NCBI RefSeq assembly: GCF_028550415.1
Contig: NZ_JAQQKX010000001.1
Span: forward strand, 496,001 to 560,000
From: Asticcacaulis aquaticus
Lineage (GTDB): Bacteria; Pseudomonadota; Alphaproteobacteria; Caulobacterales; Caulobacteraceae
Direction of reading: 5' to 3'
DNA: 64,000 bases
Position 1 is the first letter of the stretch, and each line of letters begins with the position of its first letter. Under the pieces are notes generated by a model that had not been told where the DNA came from, made no database searches, and saw nothing but the letters and a program-made list of their open reading frames with translations. The translations under genes were made by a program, and so were the position numbers. Positions 46,672 to 56,613 of this stretch are shown here, piece after piece.

Positions 46672-46859
46672 TGTCAGACAGATGAAAACTATAAGGGTTC
46701 CAACCACATTTGCGGAATCGAGCGGTATTCCGCGGCCCACAACTCTTGATTTTAGACGGTGTCTCAAACACACTTTCCACTCGCCCTCCCCCGGCGCGTG
46801 ATGTGCCCCCGCCCCATGGGGCTCCCACTTCGCCGGAGCGGCGTCAGGAGCGTGTACGA

Positions 46860-47489
46860 ATGGTGGGAAAACCGCTGGCTTATGAAAAAGTGTATGAGAC
46901 AGTCAAGCGGGCGGTCATGGAAGGCATGTTCTGGCCGGGCCAGCGCATTGAAATCGGACGCCTGAAAGCGTTGGTCGATACCAGCCACATCCCAATTCGA
47001 GAGGCGCTGCGACGCCTGTCGGCTGAGGGTCTGGTCGAGGCACATCGGCGGGAGGGGTTTTCCGTTCCGTTGGTAACGGAACCCAGTTTGCTCGGCCATT
47101 ACGAGTGGCTTGATGCGGCTGTGCGTTTTGCGGCCAATAAGGGGACACCCCCACCGGCACATATCCTCGAAGAGATTGACTTCGAGGGCATGCGCGCCCT
47201 GCCGATCGCCGACGCCACGTCGCGCTTCTTTCTGGCAGTGGCCATCGCTTCAGGCAATACGGGCGTGGAAGCCACCGTCCGGTATATCAACGACAGCCTG
47301 CACCTGGTGCGCACACTGAAAGAGTCACGTCTGCCCGACAGCCGTGCTGAACTCGACCGCCTCATCGACACGTGGCGCCGAGGCCCCCTCTCCGAGTTCG
47401 AGGCGGCTCTGAAGGCGTATTTCGACCTTCGGCATGCGCTTGTGCCGGAAGTCGTGCGCTTATTGTCTCGCCGTAAGAGCTTCGATTAA
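46860..47489 (+). CDS. GntR-family transcriptional regulator of the lasso locus
   Basis: About 209 residues from the ATG at 46860, preceded by CAGGAG. The winged helix-turn-helix is GKPLAYEKVYETVKRAVMEG, then PGQRIEIGRLKALVDTSHIPIREALRRLSAEGLVEAHRREGFSV (interrupted), typical of the GntR/FadR class. The C-terminal domain is helical and FCD-like (FDLRHALVPEVVRLLSR at the end) and should bind an effector. It is 150 bases before the precursor gene, on the same strand. The matching operator-like sequences before gntR and the precursor make it the probable local regulator. Confidence 0.88.
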   Translation: MVGKPLAYEKVYETVKRAVMEGMFWPGQRIEIGRLKALVDTSHIPIREALRRLSAEGLVEAHRREGFSVPLVTEPSLLGHYEWLDAAVRFAANKGTPPPAHILEEIDFEGMRALPIADATSRFFLAVAIASGNTGVEATVRYINDSLHLVRTLKESRLPDSRAELDRLIDTWRRGPLSEFEAALKAYFDLRHALVPEVVRLLSRRKSFD

Positions 47490-47565: not shown

Positions 47566-47638
47566 ATATACCCGCGTTCCGCTCCTACGCTCGGTTTTGC
47601 CATGATGACCATGGTTCAACCTCAAATAGGAGCCTCCT

Positions 47639-47785
47639 ATGAAGACCCAAGCTGAAACCGCCGCCGACTACGCGCCTCTGGCCGATGATATCATCGAACT
47701 GGGCGTGGCTTCGACCGATACGCATGGTATCGTCGGCAACCAGGAGCCGAACGGCCAACTGTTCACCGGCATTTCCGAAGACTGA
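47639..47785 (+). CDS. Lasso peptide precursor
   Basis: 48 codons, with GGAG six bases before the ATG. The leader (29 residues) contains DYAPLADD and ends IIELGVASTDTH, matching the proteobacterial lasso pattern ELG-x-x-S-x-x-T-x before the core, with the required Thr at the penultimate leader position. The predicted core is GIVGNQEPNGQLFTGISED (19 residues). Gly1 is the expected ring nitrogen and Glu7 is the only acidic residue within positions 7-9, so a seven-residue macrolactam with a 12-residue tail is predicted. Candidate plugs are Leu12 and Phe13. The B and C genes follow immediately. Leader cleavage and ring size are inferences from the sequence. Confidence 0.93.
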   Translation: MKTQAETAADYAPLADDIIELGVASTDTHGIVGNQEPNGQLFTGISED

Positions 47786-47794
47786 ATGGCCACG

Positions 47795-47820
47795 GGCGTA
47801 CGGGCGTAAGCCCGTACGCC
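47795..47820 (+). promoter_or_regulatory. Intercistronic hairpin between precursor and B gene
   Basis: GGCGTACGGGC (47795-47805) and GCCCGTACGCC (47810-47820) form a perfect 11-base-pair stem closed by a GTAA tetraloop. No U tract follows, so it is more likely to attenuate or to protect the precursor message than to terminate fully. It would set a high precursor-to-enzyme ratio. Confidence 0.85.
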
Positions 47821-47829
47821 TGCCTTTCC

Positions 47830-48483
47830 ATGACCCTTCGCCTCGCCCCCCATATTTCCTATTGCCTGCTCGCGGAGCGACCTGTCTTTTTTGACGTGTC
47901 GAACGACCGCTATTTTCATCTGCCGGATGACCTGGAAAACCCTTTTCTCTTCGGATCAAAACACGGCAAAGTCGATCAAGCCGTCGCTGACCGCCTGATT
48001 CAACTCGGTGTGCTGGAAGTCTGTGCCCCCGATGCCGCGGGTTGGTGCCCCGTCGATCATTCACCGGCTGTCGTCAGCGTTCTGGAGCTTGACCAGCCCG
48101 AACCGCCCGTCACCCTGGCCGGGATATGTGAAGTCGCATGGATTGTTCTGACGGAAAAGGGCGGCCTGTCACACAAGAGTCTGCAAAGTCGCCTTCCGCC
48201 CGTTTTTCCCGCGCAGACGTCTGCCGATATCTCGAACACCACGATCATACAAAATGCCCTGTTTTTCCGGCGTGCCCGCAGGTACGTGCCGGTCGATACG
48301 ATCTGCCTTCTGGATTCACTGTCCCTTCTCATTTTCCTGCGTCGCCGGGGCATCAGCGCGACCCTTGTCTTCGGCGTGAATCTGACACCTTTTTCCGCGC
48401 ATTGCTGGGTTCAAGCCGGCGATCTGCTGCTCAATGATACGGTCGGGGGCGTTCAGTCTTACCTGCCTATCCGGGTGTTTTGA
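47830..48483 (+). CDS. Lasso peptide B protein (RRE plus leader peptidase)
   Basis: 217 residues. The N-terminal part (residues 1-75, LRLAPHISYCLLAERPVFFD and ISNDRYFHLP-like text) is the PqqD-like recognition domain that binds the leader. The C-terminal transglutaminase-like protease has the catalytic Cys in VDTICLLDSLSLLIFLRRRG (interrupted), His in AHCWVQAGDLLLND and the Asp in LLND. The fused B1-B2 arrangement is the proteobacterial form. It removes the leader to free Gly1. There is no obvious ribosome-binding site, so translation may depend on the upstream hairpin region. Confidence 0.92.
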   Translation: MTLRLAPHISYCLLAERPVFFDVSNDRYFHLPDDLENPFLFGSKHGKVDQAVADRLIQLGVLEVCAPDAAGWCPVDHSPAVVSVLELDQPEPPVTLAGICEVAWIVLTEKGGLSHKSLQSRLPPVFPAQTSADISNTTIIQNALFFRRARRYVPVDTICLLDSLSLLIFLRRRGISATLVFGVNLTPFSAHCWVQAGDLLLNDTVGGVQSYLPIRVF

Positions 48484-48484
48484 C

Positions 48485-50224
48485 GTGCTGACCTACGCTC
48501 TCACCTGGCGCGACGGCGTCCTCGGCGATTTGCCGATGGTCGGCGAGATGGGCGAGGAAAGCCTTGTCCGACATCTGCCAGGATCGAACGGTTTGTTGCT
48601 GGGACGGGTCTATCCCAACCATCCCGAACCCGCCCACCACTGGCTTACGGCGCTCGACGTCCTTCCGGCGGAAGACGCTCAAACCTTTCTCAAGTCGCAT
48701 TGCTGGGGCGATTTCATCGTCCTACTCCCCAATAGCCTGAAGGCGAATACCCTGGATGTGTTGCGATCGCCCTGCGGGCTGCTGGATTGCTTTCTGGCAC
48801 ACCAAGACGGCACGCTTTATATTTTCTCCGATCTTGCCCAAGCGCAACGATGCGGTCTGTCGTCCCCCCCTATCAACTGGCGGTTCATTACCCATTCGCT
48901 GTGTTATGCGGGTCTGCCCGAGTTCGACACCGGTCTCGACACCGTGCAACAGCTTCTTCCGGGCTTCAGCGCGACCTGTGACGACACTGCCATTACATTC
49001 AAGTCGTTCTGGTCTCCGTGGCCTGGCGCCGATCGCCGCCAGCAATACACAACGATGGCTGAATCCGTTTTTTCCCTTCGTGCCACGGTCGATCACGTGA
49101 TGCGCTCGTACAGCCATACGATCCAACATGGTTTCATCGAACTGTCAGGCGGGCTGGATTCCTCCATCGTCGCGACTTGCCTATCCCGCCAGAAAATACG
49201 GCTTTCCGGCTTCAACTTGGTGACCAGCGTGCCGGGCGCGGATGAACGTATCTATGCGCGTGACGTCGCCGAGAGCGCGCAGGTGTCGCTGGTCTACTGC
49301 CCCTTCGACTCATCGCGTGTTCGCGCCCTGCCCGAGCCGGCTCGACCGGGGCCATTGCCGGGCATGGAGATGCTTCAGGCCGCGGTCGACGATATTTCTC
49401 AGCCCCTGTATCAAGCGGCCAAAGCCGATGCGCTCTTTTCCGGTGCGGGTGGCGATAGCGTCCTTTGTTACTTACCTACGGCAGCGTCCGCCACCGACGC
49501 GCTTATAGCGTTTGGACCGGGGCGCCGGTTTCTAAGCGCGTTGCAGGATCTGAGCGCGCTACACAACATAACCCTGTGGAAGGCCGGAAAGCTGGCTATC
49601 AAAAAAGCGTTGCGGCGGTCCGGCGTCGACTGGAAGCGAAACACCTTGTTTTTAGCGCCCGATCTGAAGGTGCCGGTTCCGTTCAAGCACCCCTGGCTCC
49701 AACCTGAAGGTCGCGTCCTGCGTGGCAAAGCCGAGCATGTCCGTCAGATAATCTCGACGAAATTCTTCGGCGAAGTCATGGAGCGGCGTGCCAAGGTACC
49801 GGTATATCTCCCGTTGTTGGCACAGCCGGTTGTCGAAACCGCTCTGCGCATACCGACGTGGTTCTGGTTCGACGGCGGTTATAATCGGGCCGTGGCGCGG
49901 CATGCCTTTGCCGATCGTCTTCCGACAAGCGTTCGCCTACGACGGAGCAAGGGCAATTTCACGAGTTTCAACGGCCTGGTCTTCGACCGCAACCGCGCGG
50001 CTTTGCAAACCTATCTATGTGATGGCCAATTGGCCGGAGCGGGCATTCTGGATATCAAGCCCCTCGCCGACTATCTTAGTCGGCCTCTAAAGAAACGCGA
50101 TGCGGTGTTCCACCGCGTCTTTGAGCTAGCGCGCATGGAGGCGTGGGTTAGGGCAACCCTCAAGTCGTCGGACAGCCATCGGGACGAGCGGGACGACCTG
50201 CCTGATATTCCGCCTTCAGCTTAA
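48485..50224 (+). CDS. Lasso peptide C protein (asparagine synthetase-like cyclase)
   Basis: About 579 residues from a GTG at 48485, directly after the B stop; a longer frame from the ATG at 48434 would overlap B by 50 bases and adds residues unlike the family's start. The N-terminal glutaminase-like domain begins VLTYALTWRDG and lacks the nucleophile Cys. The synthetase domain has the ATP-pyrophosphatase loop ELSGGLDSSIVATCL and GAGGDSVLCYLP. It adenylates the Glu7 side chain and closes the isopeptide bond to Gly1. Its last 65 bases overlap the 3' end of the convergent isopeptidase gene. Confidence 0.93.
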   Translation: MLTYALTWRDGVLGDLPMVGEMGEESLVRHLPGSNGLLLGRVYPNHPEPAHHWLTALDVLPAEDAQTFLKSHCWGDFIVLLPNSLKANTLDVLRSPCGLLDCFLAHQDGTLYIFSDLAQAQRCGLSSPPINWRFITHSLCYAGLPEFDTGLDTVQQLLPGFSATCDDTAITFKSFWSPWPGADRRQQYTTMAESVFSLRATVDHVMRSYSHTIQHGFIELSGGLDSSIVATCLSRQKIRLSGFNLVTSVPGADERIYARDVAESAQVSLVYCPFDSSRVRALPEPARPGPLPGMEMLQAAVDDISQPLYQAAKADALFSGAGGDSVLCYLPTAASATDALIAFGPGRRFLSALQDLSALHNITLWKAGKLAIKKALRRSGVDWKRNTLFLAPDLKVPVPFKHPWLQPEGRVLRGKAEHVRQIISTKFFGEVMERRAKVPVYLPLLAQPVVETALRIPTWFWFDGGYNRAVARHAFADRLPTSVRLRRSKGNFTSFNGLVFDRNRAALQTYLCDGQLAGAGILDIKPLADYLSRPLKKRDAVFHRVFELARMEAWVRATLKSSDSHRDERDDLPDIPPSA

Positions 50225-52312: not shown

Positions 52313-54874
52313 TTAGAAGCGCTTCTTCAGGCCGATCGACACAAACCGGCCTATGGCCGACGTGTTGGCGCTATCGAAATTTATGCCTTCCTGTGTTCGA
52401 CCGGGACCATAGGCATAGGGCGGGTCGGCATCGAAAAAGTTCTGCACGGCCAGAGTCAGATCGATATCCGAGAACATACCCTCCCCTGCCAATCGGTAGG
52501 CGATGGTCAGATCAACCGTGGTCCATGACGCCACAGTGCGTTCGGGCGTAACGTAGGTATCCGTGGCGCTCGATAGGTAGTTGACGATCCCGGTGGTCAC
52601 GATCGATCCGACCGACCAGGTCGCACCGGCTCGCGCCCTGACCTTCGGCGCGTTGAACACTTTTCCGGTAAGGGTTTGCGGCGGCATCGACGCGATGGTC
52701 TGCTGTACGACTTTGAGCCACGTCGCCGATGCAAACAGATCGAGATCGCCGGTAGGCAGCTCGACGGGACCGCGTATAGCGAGGTCGATCCCGTCAATTT
52801 CCTGGCGGCTTACGTTGAGTTTGCGGTCGTCGACCAGTGCGAGAAGGGTCGCGGGGTTATAGGTTTGGCCGCTGAAATTCGCAATCCGGCGCGCACCGGC
52901 GGTTGCTGTCGTCTGTTGTTGCGGCGTGGGGGCCAGAACAACGAACGACGCGAAGTACGGGTTTGACAAGGCCTGAGTGAACGGTGTGACGGGTGCCAGC
53001 ACCCGATCCCGGTAAGCGATGTTGAAGCGTGTGACCGACAGACGTGAACCCGCCCAAAGTTCGGGCGACCAGTCGACACCGACCGTCCAGGTTTTCGCAT
53101 GCTCAGGCTTGAGGTCGGGATTTCCGCCGACGAGCAGCATGGCGACGCCCGGCGTGGTCGATCCCATGACCTGTGCATTATACAGGATTGCGTTGAATGG
53201 CTGGGCCAGTTCGCTGAGTCCCGGCGCCTTGAAGGAGGTCCCCAGTGTTCCCCGGACGATCACACCCGGCACGGGTTGATACCGGACCCCATATTTGTAG
53301 GTCGAGGTCCGGTCATATCGGTCGTAATCTTCGACGCGCGTCGCCACGCTGAAGTCCAGCCGGTTCAGTCCGGTGCGGGTGTCCGATGGAGAAACCAGAG
53401 GCACGAGCGCTTCGGCATAGGCGAACGTTACGTTGCGACGAAACTGATCGACAAGCGGCGACCCCATGCTCGATTTCCGATAGTGCTCGTCGCGGTAGCC
53501 CACCCCGATTGCCAGCTTCAGAGGGCCCCCCGGCAGGGCCAGCAGCGTACCGTTGCCGGAGATTTCGCCAGACTTGAGTAGCGAACGGAACATATCCTTG
53601 TAAGGTGCGCTCGTTTGCGGGCTGTAGCGATAATATCCGTACCCCCGCGAAATGGTGGCATCGGCGGTAATGGTCCAGTCACCGCCTGCGCGGTAGGTTA
53701 GGCCCGGGGCGATCATATAGCTACGCGAGCCGTTTTGCCCGGCGATCCGTTGATCGGTCTTGAAAAACTGAATTTTGACGTCGGATTCATGCTGGCTGAC
53801 ATAGGCATCCGCATTAAAGGTCAACCGCTCCGTGATGTCCTGACCGATGTTGACGAAAAGGGACTTCCGCTCCGTTGGGCGCAACAGCGTGTTGAAGGGC
53901 GCGGCGCTGGCCGTTACCTCGCGATCGGTCGTCAGAATTTCGTCCTGCTTGCCGTATTCGACATTCGCGAGCAGATGCCCCCCTGTCCACGTATGGCCGG
54001 CGAGCACATTATAGACCTGCTCAAAACCACCACCTTGGGTCGCGCCGCCTATGCGCGCGCCCAGTTGAACCCCGCTGTAGTCTTTGCGGGTGATGAAATT
54101 TGCCACCCCCGCAACAGCATCAGACCCGTAGAGTGCCGAAGCTCCATCGGCGATAATCTCCACGCGCTCCAAAGCCCCCAATGGCAACCCCGAAATGTCG
54201 CTGCCACCGAACGGTCCGTCTGAGGCTAAGCGGTGGCCATTCACCAGCACGAGGTTGGCGTCCGTCCCCAGGCCGCGCAGGTTGAGGGTCGACGAATTGA
54301 ACGAGTTATTGTTTTGCTCGACCGGCGTTTGCATGACGCCGGGGTTCTGGCCGCCCGCGAAGGATTGGGGTATCGAACGCGCCAAATCCCCTGCATTGCT
54401 GTAGCCTGAACGTTCGATATCCTTACGCGTGATGAGCGTTACCGGTGAAGCGGGCGCGGCGTTCCGCAGCCGCGTACCCGTGACCACTACCTCGGTCGGT
54501 TCAGCTTCGACGGCAACGGGCGTGTTTCCTCCCCCTTGCCTCTCCGACACCTTTAGGTAAATCGCGCCGTCCACCTCCGATGCGATAACGAAACGGGTGT
54601 TGGCCAGAAGGGCCCCGAGGGCTTCCTTGCGGGTGTAGCTACCATTCAGAGCGGGCGCGGTCGTCTTATTTGCTTCGCCAAAGTCGAACATGATCGCAAC
54701 ACCGGCCTGACGGGCGTATTCGTTCAGGGCGGCGGCGGTCGATTTGGCTTCGATATGATATGTGCGCTTGCCATCATCAGCGCCGACACATGACACAGAC
54801 CCGATAATCATTGCGGTGGCGAGCGCCCAGGCCGAGGTGCGGCTGGCCCAGTAGGAACGCGATTTTACAAACAT
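52313..54874 (-). CDS. TonB-dependent receptor of the lasso locus, with STN domain
   Basis: 853 residues. A signal segment, an STN domain (YHIEAKSTAAALNEYARQAG near residue 40), then a plug (EVVVTGTRLRNAAPASPVTL, NLRGLGTDANLVLVNGHRL) and a barrel ending FVSIGLKKRF. It is shorter than the polysaccharide receptors in the window. In isopeptidase-type lasso loci such receptors are thought to recapture the lasso peptide, perhaps with a bound cargo, from outside. The STN domain indicates signalling to the FecR upstream. Confidence 0.92.
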   Translation of the reverse strand: MFVKSRSYWASRTSAWALATAMIIGSVSCVGADDGKRTYHIEAKSTAAALNEYARQAGVAIMFDFGEANKTTAPALNGSYTRKEALGALLANTRFVIASEVDGAIYLKVSERQGGGNTPVAVEAEPTEVVVTGTRLRNAAPASPVTLITRKDIERSGYSNAGDLARSIPQSFAGGQNPGVMQTPVEQNNNSFNSSTLNLRGLGTDANLVLVNGHRLASDGPFGGSDISGLPLGALERVEIIADGASALYGSDAVAGVANFITRKDYSGVQLGARIGGATQGGGFEQVYNVLAGHTWTGGHLLANVEYGKQDEILTTDREVTASAAPFNTLLRPTERKSLFVNIGQDITERLTFNADAYVSQHESDVKIQFFKTDQRIAGQNGSRSYMIAPGLTYRAGGDWTITADATISRGYGYYRYSPQTSAPYKDMFRSLLKSGEISGNGTLLALPGGPLKLAIGVGYRDEHYRKSSMGSPLVDQFRRNVTFAYAEALVPLVSPSDTRTGLNRLDFSVATRVEDYDRYDRTSTYKYGVRYQPVPGVIVRGTLGTSFKAPGLSELAQPFNAILYNAQVMGSTTPGVAMLLVGGNPDLKPEHAKTWTVGVDWSPELWAGSRLSVTRFNIAYRDRVLAPVTPFTQALSNPYFASFVVLAPTPQQQTTATAGARRIANFSGQTYNPATLLALVDDRKLNVSRQEIDGIDLAIRGPVELPTGDLDLFASATWLKVVQQTIASMPPQTLTGKVFNAPKVRARAGATWSVGSIVTTGIVNYLSSATDTYVTPERTVASWTTVDLTIAYRLAGEGMFSDIDLTLAVQNFFDADPPYAYGPGRTQEGINFDSANTSAIGRFVSIGLKKRF

Positions 54875-54989: not shown

Positions 54990-55928
54990 TTATCGCGAAA
55001 GAATGATGCTGTGGCCTTCCTGCGTCACATGAATACCGAATGAAGCTTCCAAACCGGCCAGTAGTTTCGCCGGATCTCGGTTGGTGAAGCGGCCCCCGAC
55101 GGGTATGGCCCCCAATTCGGGATTGGCGATAATGATCTTCTTGTCGCCGTAGCGATTCAGTTCTTCGACCACTTCACTCAGCACCTGACCGTTGAGCACC
55201 AGCTCGTCGTTGCGCCAGCCGGTCAGGAAATTGACATCGTCAGGTGAGACGGGGCGTACCCTGTCAGTTTCGGGGGTCAGCAAAAGCCCCTGATGCGCAC
55301 CAACCTGCACGACCTTACCCATAGCGGCCTCGACTGTCGCCGCGCCGGACAGGCTGATCAGGTCGAGCGACTGGTCGCGTAAACGGGCCACGTATTCACC
55401 CGGGCCCAGTTCCGCCACGTTTTTTCCGGCACGCAATCGAAGCGGCTGAGCGCCCACCGCGACCTTTATCGCCACCTCGCCGCGTTCCAGCCACAGATCC
55501 CGGCGGCCTTTGTCCAGTTTCCATGCGGCTTTGGTGTTGGTGTTCAGTTCGACCTGGCCCCCATCGGGGAACGGCACGATCTTGCGTTCGCCTACCGCGG
55601 TTTCCGCTTGAACGCGGGAGTTGCCAAAATTGATGGCGAGTGCGCCGATGGCAATAGCACCAATGACGGCCGCCGCCGCGCGGCCGGTGGTCAGAAACCC
55701 GCGGCGTGTCGGTCGCGGCAAAGGTTCGATAGGCGCGGTGAGGCCGCGTAATTTCTCCAGTTGGCGCATGGAGGCATACACCTTGGCGAAGGCGACGGCG
55801 TGCTGCGGATCAGCGTCGCGCCAAGCCTCGAAATCGGCATGGCTCCCCTCACCGCTATCCATCCGCGCAAACCACTGGGCGGCGGTTTCCGCGATGTCGT
55901 CGGCGGATGCTGGAGATTCCGATGTCAT
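54990..55928 (-). CDS. FecR-type anti-sigma regulator of the lasso locus
   Basis: 312 residues. The cytoplasmic domain (AAQWFARMDSGEGSHADFEAW, then DPQHAVAFAKVYASM) precedes a membrane helix near residues 82-102 (AAAAVIGAIAIGALAINFG) and a FecR periplasmic domain with VGERKIVPFPDGGQVELNTNT (interrupted). A C-terminal STN-like part follows. It should relay receptor occupancy to the ECF factor. Confidence 0.9.
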   Translation of the reverse strand: MTSESPASADDIAETAAQWFARMDSGEGSHADFEAWRDADPQHAVAFAKVYASMRQLEKLRGLTAPIEPLPRPTRRGFLTTGRAAAAVIGAIAIGALAINFGNSRVQAETAVGERKIVPFPDGGQVELNTNTKAAWKLDKGRRDLWLERGEVAIKVAVGAQPLRLRAGKNVAELGPGEYVARLRDQSLDLISLSGAATVEAAMGKVVQVGAHQGLLLTPETDRVRPVSPDDVNFLTGWRNDELVLNGQVLSEVVEELNRYGDKKIIIANPELGAIPVGGRFTNRDPAKLLAGLEASFGIHVTQEGHSIILSR

Positions 55929-56007: not shown

Positions 56008-56613
56008 CTAATCGCGGGCGGGGCGTTTTCGAGTGGTGTGCTGGGAATCCCGCACCATTTCCAGCCCCTGGCGATCAACGACGCCCATATTGGCGGCTTC
56101 GACGGCTTGCTTAAACAGCAATGCCCCTCGGGTCAGATGATACTCGACGCCCTTGACGGTCATGCCTAAGCGATGGGCGATCACCTTGATCGGTAAGGCG
56201 TCCAGCCGGCGCATCAGCAACACTCGACGGGTCATATCCGGCAGGGAGTGAATGGCGTCCATGCCGACTCGCACCTGCTCGCGCACCGAGAAGGTCTCGT
56301 AACCGTCCAAGTCCTGCGCCGCATATTCCAGGGTCTCGAAATCCGGAAGGGCGGACATCCGTACGACCTGCGCGCGCCGGACGTGCTTCAGACCCAGATT
56401 GAACACCATGCGCATGACGTAGGTGCGGGGCACGGCAATCGACCGCCAAGCCTCCCCGGTCAACAAGGTCGCATAGACGTCATGCACCAGATCGCGGGCG
56501 CTCTCCCCCTCACCTGTCAGCCGCTTCGCAACCCACAGGTACTGTTTTTCGTAAGGCGCCACGAGGTCGGCGAACCAACGATCGACATCCCGTATCCAAA
56601 CACCGTTACTCAT
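56008..56613 (-). CDS. ECF sigma factor (FecI-type) of the lasso locus
   Basis: 201 residues. Region 2 is visible as LAPYEKQYLWVAKRLTGE and SARDLVHDVYATLL, and region 4 as LPIKVIAHRLGMTVKGVEYHLTRG. It is more diverged from the two polysaccharide-region sigma factors than they are from each other. It is probably the activator of the fecR-receptor-isopeptidase genes downstream. The promoter region is shared with the divergent XRE gene. Confidence 0.9.
   Translation of the reverse strand: MSNGVWIRDVDRWFADLVAPYEKQYLWVAKRLTGEGESARDLVHDVYATLLTGEAWRSIAVPRTYVMRMVFNLGLKHVRRAQVVRMSALPDFETLEYAAQDLDGYETFSVREQVRVGMDAIHSLPDMTRRVLLMRRLDALPIKVIAHRLGMTVKGVEYHLTRGALLFKQAVEAANMGVVDRQGLEMVRDSQHTTRKRPARD

Follow-up and report, generated by a model that had tools for sequence, protein, structure and literature searches.

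A putative xanthomonin-type lasso peptide cluster with a predicted Gly1-Glu7 ring in Asticcacaulis aquaticus

The lasso peptide locus of Asticcacaulis aquaticus raises the question of which residue closes the ring of its product, and to which group of lasso clusters it belongs. In the initial annotation of the 64,000-nucleotide stretch of DNA analysed here (the window), a short precursor was proposed, with a core closed between Gly1 and Glu7, and a Glu-closed seven-residue ring was regarded as unusual. The latter view was mistaken. Xanthomonins I-III, described in 2014, have seven-residue rings closed by Glu7, replacements of the ring-closing residue in a passage of PMC4960549 include E7D of xanthomonin II, and a 7-residue ring was predicted for the core GILQGNEPMGGEPVPGISEE of Stenotrophomonas acidaminiphila in a passage of PMC4675943.

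The precursor and its gene cluster

The 48-codon precursor ORF exceeded the curated cut-offs of both Pfam PF24178 (32.7 bits against 27, E 7.5e-8) and NCBIfam NF033522 (34 bits against 33, E 2e-8). It is therefore a real precursor, and a chance ORF is ruled out. The precursor, B and C genes lie where the initial annotation had placed them (Table 1), while its worry that the precursor would be missed by gene calling is weakened, as NF033522 finds the gene, though by 1 bit only. A comparison of the precursor with solved structures gave just one unrelated match (E 0.17). The matched curated models are named after benenodin/subterisin. Subterisin has an eight-residue ring. A ring of the same size is given for benenodin-1 in a passage of PMC13352647.

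Table 1. Features of the lasso locus in the window
Feature	Position	Strand	Evidence or remark
GntR-family regulator	46710..47489	+	Pfam GntR 53.1 bits; 70% identity over 205 aa to A. machinosus neighbour
Shine-Dalgarno-like AGGAG, 5' of precursor	47628..47632	+	sequence
Lasso precursor A, 48 aa	47639..47785	+	Pfam PF24178, NCBIfam NF033522
Leader, 29 codons, ending Asp-Thr-His (Thr28 at -2)	47639..47725	+	Thr28 and Gly30 invariant in 7/7 aligned precursors
Core GIVGNQEPNGQLFTGISED	47726..47782	+	Glu7 codon 47744-47746; Glu7 likewise in A. machinosus and Luteimonas cores
B protein, leader peptidase	47830..48483	+	NF033537 71 bits (cut-off 33); Transglut_core3 65.9 bits
C protein, lasso cyclase	48485..50224	+	Asn_synthase 75.9 bits (cut-off 21)
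AtxE2-family lasso peptide isopeptidase E, 712 aa	50160..52298	-	NF033523 542 bits (cut-off 400); AtxE2 (5txc) E 5e-44
TonB-dependent receptor	52313..54874	-	Pfam TonB barrel 121 bits, Plug 70.7 bits
FecR-like regulator	54990..55928	-	Pfam DUF4880, FecR, FecR_C above cut-off
ECF sigma factor	56008..56613	-	TIGR02937 49.7 bits (cut-off 42.9); Pfam Sigma70_r2, r4_2

The C protein likely starts at the GTG directly after the B stop codon (the ORF as listed extends further upstream, to 48434), and the isopeptidase gene, which the initial annotation did not mention, is convergent with it, their ends overlapping. The regulator ORF is listed from a TTG; an ATG at 46860 agrees better with the aligned length of its neighbours. 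We infer for B a C-terminal protease joined to an N-terminal leader-binding part.

The catalytic columns of the enzymes are intact. Cys and His are identical in all 56 aligned B rows, and the S, G, G, D and S columns of the C motif SGGLDS in all 54 C rows (L in 53). The isopeptidase columns that we take to be the catalytic triad hold Ser in 54/54, Glu in 53/54 and His in 54/54 aligned rows. The parts of a proteobacterial A-B-C-E lasso cluster thus occur together: a precursor with Thr at -2 and Gly1, a B protein with Cys-His, a C protein with SGGxDS and an AtxE2-type isopeptidase with Ser/Glu/His. No solved structure matched the C protein at E 0.001.

Ring size and the closing acid in related precursors

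The 19-residue core carries Gly1 and Glu7, D and E being otherwise absent from residues 1-17; residue 9 is Asn and there is no Asp at positions 7-9, so that Glu7 was correctly counted as the only acid there. Glu7 is the sole side-chain carboxylate before residue 18, therefore cleavage before Gly30 allows a seven-residue ring only, as in a xanthomonin-type core. The position of the acid alone is weak evidence, because 13% of shuffles of the core also place just one acid within positions 7-9, at 7; the case for Glu7 closure is carried by the homologues that have an acid at the same position.

The precursor-alignment search of the genome collection returned five named loci, four of Asticcacaulis and one of Luteimonas; against 385 alphaproteobacterial genomes the precursor profile clearly matched the window alone (next best E 0.0018). 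The sister precursor of A. machinosus is 63% identical to that of the window, its core GPPGSGEANGFQPTGISED can be closed by Glu7 only, and its genes are arranged alike, with GntR, A, B and C followed by E and the TonB gene in convergent orientation. The core of Luteimonas suaedae, GPGGSVEPTGINVLPGITEE, likewise offers only Glu7. The remaining Asticcacaulis cores of the seven-precursor alignment have Glu8 (GGAQGGPEPSDQQNRMGISED and GGAPGGPEPSNQKAAIGISED), Glu7 together with Glu8 (GSENAGEEHGEPFLPGIAID) or Asp8 (GVGGDQPDGINQRFLNAGITQD).

Among the 23 Asticcacaulis precursors read, which are part of those in the genus, Glu7 with Glu8 or Asp9 occurs in three cores, Glu8 in two and Asp at 8 or 9 in 16; sole Glu7 is found in two, against none of the 23 read from other genera of the Caulobacteraceae. 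Two loci (L030 and L022) have Glu7 and Asp9 together. The L030 core is presumably astexin-1, closed at Asp9. Glu7 thus need not serve where Asp9 is present, an option closed to the window core by its Asn at residue 9.

All 23 cores from the other Caulobacteraceae genera have Glu8. They come from 15 of 18 regions chosen by isopeptidase similarity (20 were fetched, L170 being Asticcacaulis and L167 another family), after loose-pattern ORFs that are plainly no precursors had been removed by eye; L153, L155 and L156 gave no core because the search was restricted to the flanks of the C gene. The lasso clusters of these genera (L152-L166, L168, L169, L171) hold one to three precursors each, and most of their Glu8 cores finish with a short, acidic Gly-Ile/Leu tail. 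At L167 (7467-7949), the leaders of two precursors end unusually in Thr-Phe; the cores are GLPVNFESDIENPVNGTFE and GIIGGSGESERPIDGIFE, and the C protein of the cluster is distant.

In a sample of the Luteimonas family (Lysobacteraceae), the precursor profile matched 54 of 395 genomes at E <= 0.1, the weakest of them falling mostly within long frames and being probably chance matches. Thirty-seven precursors were collected from the loci of 30 of these genomes, 32 by pattern and five by profile (a pattern match on the other strand of L075 is no precursor). Several cores recur in sister species, which leaves 29 different ones. Glu7 is the sole acid at positions 7-9 in 14 of the 37 and is joined by another acid, at 8 or 9, in 15 more; six have Glu8 alone and two Asp7 with Glu8. 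The family also encodes GGPLAGEEIGGFNVPGISEE and GGPLAGEEMGGITTLGISQD (L073), which we take to be xanthomonins I and II.

The homologues support both the leader boundary after His29 and the predicted Gly1-Glu7 ring of seven residues, which we consider well supported. For the cyclised full-length core, the calculated monoisotopic mass is 1955.92 Da ([M+H]+ 1956.93), and forms shortened at the C-terminus would have masses such as 1840.90 and 1711.85 Da.

Three other readings were weighed against this ring. The precursor might be processed without cyclisation, as part of a decayed or mis-matched pair: its ring size would depart from the Glu8 of the other Caulobacteraceae genera, and ring length affects lasso production according to a passage of PMC13352647. 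However, the reading frames are open, the catalytic columns are conserved, and a Glu7 core is retained in A. machinosus (C protein 50% identical over 524 aa), which makes the loss of cyclisation improbable.

Still less probable is cleavage after Asp27, with Thr26 at -2, which would yield a Thr1-Glu9 ring of nine residues and a core beginning THGIVGNQE (calculated mass of a product beginning at Thr28, 2194.03 Da). The window leader does carry Thr at 26 as well as at 28, rings of nine residues are common, and some proteobacterial lasso peptides are known to begin with a residue other than Gly. Position 26, however, is variable across the seven aligned precursors (T, V, T, V, I, R, I), whereas all seven share Thr28 and Gly30. 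In A. machinosus, residue 26 is Val, and the -2 Thr of the leader fits only cleavage before Gly1. The invariant Thr28-x-Gly30 led us to discard His1-Glu8 as well as Thr1-Glu9.

It is just as hard to credit that the product is a branched, unthreaded ring with a tail that the ring does not lock. Threading cannot be seen in a sequence, and Arg, Trp and Tyr are absent from the tail, whose only bulky residues are Leu12 and Phe13; yet smaller plugs should suffice for a smaller ring, and an AtxE2-family isopeptidase adjoins the cluster, such enzymes acting on threaded lasso peptides only (passage of PMC13352647).

Enzyme phylogeny and comparison with known lasso systems

The C tree comprised 37 rows (22 Xanthomonad and 15 Asticcacaulis; L119 was left out as too short) and the E tree 34 (L113 was too short, and no E match was obtained for L044, L046 or L102). 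In the C tree, the window and A. machinosus are paired (100/100). A split supported at 100/99 separates 27 rows, namely all 22 Xanthomonads and five Asticcacaulis with the window pair among them, from 10 Asticcacaulis rows on the benenodin/astexin side. The corresponding E split (99/99) places 23 Xanthomonad rows and three of Asticcacaulis, including the window, opposite eight others, one of which (L108) has a very long branch. The enzymes of the window are thus found on the same side as the xanthomonin enzymes in both trees.

The closing acid follows this division: in the C tree, Glu occupies residue 7 or 8 in all 27 clusters of the window side, and Asp residue 8 or 9 in all 10 clusters opposite. 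An AU test rejected the placement of the window pair with the Asp-type Asticcacaulis (p 0.0008, for groups defined with the first tree already in view), and gave p 0.22 for the union of the five Glu-type Asticcacaulis clusters in one clade. A larger C tree of 52 rows added 15 rows of other Caulobacteraceae genera, one of Asticcacaulis and one of another alphaproteobacterial family; L102 and L108 were omitted for their long branches, and the stretches of L153, L155 and L156 held no C match. There, the window pair falls inside a 29-row group (99/94), together with all 22 Xanthomonad rows, two of another Caulobacteraceae genus and three other Glu-type Asticcacaulis rows; its direct sister relationship to the Xanthomonad rows received just 77/75. 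It counts against the seven-residue reading that Glu8 is common in the enzyme group of the window: it is seen in the 23 cores of other Caulobacteraceae genera (L171 falling outside the group), in the two GISED-tailed Glu8 cores of Asticcacaulis and in six of the 37 Lysobacteraceae cores. As the larger tree sets L171, a Glu8 row, apart from the Glu group, the closing acid tracks the C tree well but not perfectly. That the residue follows the tree in nearly all rows suggests that the cyclase lineage may set the choice between Asp and Glu.

In the Glu8 clusters of A. sp. YBE204 and A. endophyticus, the isopeptidase slot is occupied by S9 hydrolases of about 810 aa (L044, 8562-10985, and L046, 8555-10999, both on the minus strand). 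With the AtxE2 model, whose cut-off is 400 bits, they scored only 26 and 50, and are perhaps divergent lasso isopeptidases.

The window core resembles xanthomonins I-III of Xanthomonas gardneri in Gly1, in the (here predicted) seven-residue ring closed by Glu7 and in a short acidic GIS-type tail; the leader pattern is the same, and the C and E enzymes are related, the C proteins of the window and of L099 being 36% identical. It differs in lacking an E7-E8 pair and in its caulobacteral host, a member of the Caulobacteraceae. The surroundings also differ, as the window has a FecR gene beyond the TonB gene. FecR was matched in the six Asticcacaulis stretches that are long enough (68-69% in A. machinosus and A. 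sp. YBE204), whereas none was matched at E 1e-3 beside eight Xanthomonad clusters, whose stretches were extended because the originals ended close behind the TonB gene; two of the eight gave a distant sigma-factor match (26%). In the Xanthomonad locus L117, a distant FecR match (27%) accompanies a further TonB gene at the opposite end of the lasso genes. The best matches of the TonB receptor are 36-64% identical in Asticcacaulis loci and 33-37% in Xanthomonad loci, and the receptor tracks the C and E trees less clearly.

With benenodin-1 and the astexins, the window shares the genus, the leader family, the gene order and the AtxE2-type isopeptidase, and TonB/FecR genes occur in several of their loci. 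Those peptides, however, are closed by Asp8 or Asp9, and their C and E enzymes stand on the other side of the trees. Membership of that group, with an Asp-closed ring of eight or nine residues, was rejected on the lack of Asp at 7-9 and on the AU test given above. Huascopeptin is actinobacterial and closed by Asp7. Its ring has seven residues (passage of PMC12427821), the size predicted for the window core. A published likeness is the S. acidaminiphila core, with the motif G-x5-E-P-x-G, a GISE tail and a predicted 7-residue ring, from a different genus and class and itself known as a prediction in the passage of PMC4675943. The 19 residues of the window core did not recur exactly in the literature passages searched, but they resemble this published sequence.

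Proposed processing and its meaning

We suggest, with considerable confidence, that the locus is a xanthomonin-type lasso cluster (class II, no cysteine) that works as follows. B would bind the leader and cut after His29, whereupon C would activate the side chain of Glu7 and link it to the amino group of Gly1 around the threaded tail, giving a ring of seven residues and 23 atoms. The lasso peptide would be exported and re-imported via the TonB receptor, whose signal FecR and the ECF sigma factor would relay, and the ring would be opened by the isopeptidase. We infer production, ring formation, threading, export, uptake, signalling and hydrolysis from the families to which these proteins belong.

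The new part is small. The chemistry of the Glu7 ring is already known from the xanthomonins; what is added, from comparison of sequences, is a xanthomonin-type Glu7 lineage in Caulobacteraceae with its predicted ring, by which the smallest known lasso ring is extended, as a prediction, to this family. It is conceivable, if rather doubtful, that the Asticcacaulis ring arose apart from that of the Xanthomonads, from a Glu8 ancestor that lost one ring residue. If so, related Caulobacteraceae cyclases with GISED-tailed substrates would yield both seven- and eight-residue rings, and the control of ring size by the cyclase could be mapped by swaps.

The overall picture of lasso peptides is unchanged, and the remaining interest lies in the series of seven- and eight-residue rings within Asticcacaulis. 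Glu7 in the window and A. machinosus stands against Glu8 in A. sp. YBE204 and A. endophyticus, with a common GISED tail and similar leader ends. Such natural pairs may be useful, because a one-residue change of the ring usually reduces lasso production, according to a passage of PMC13352647.
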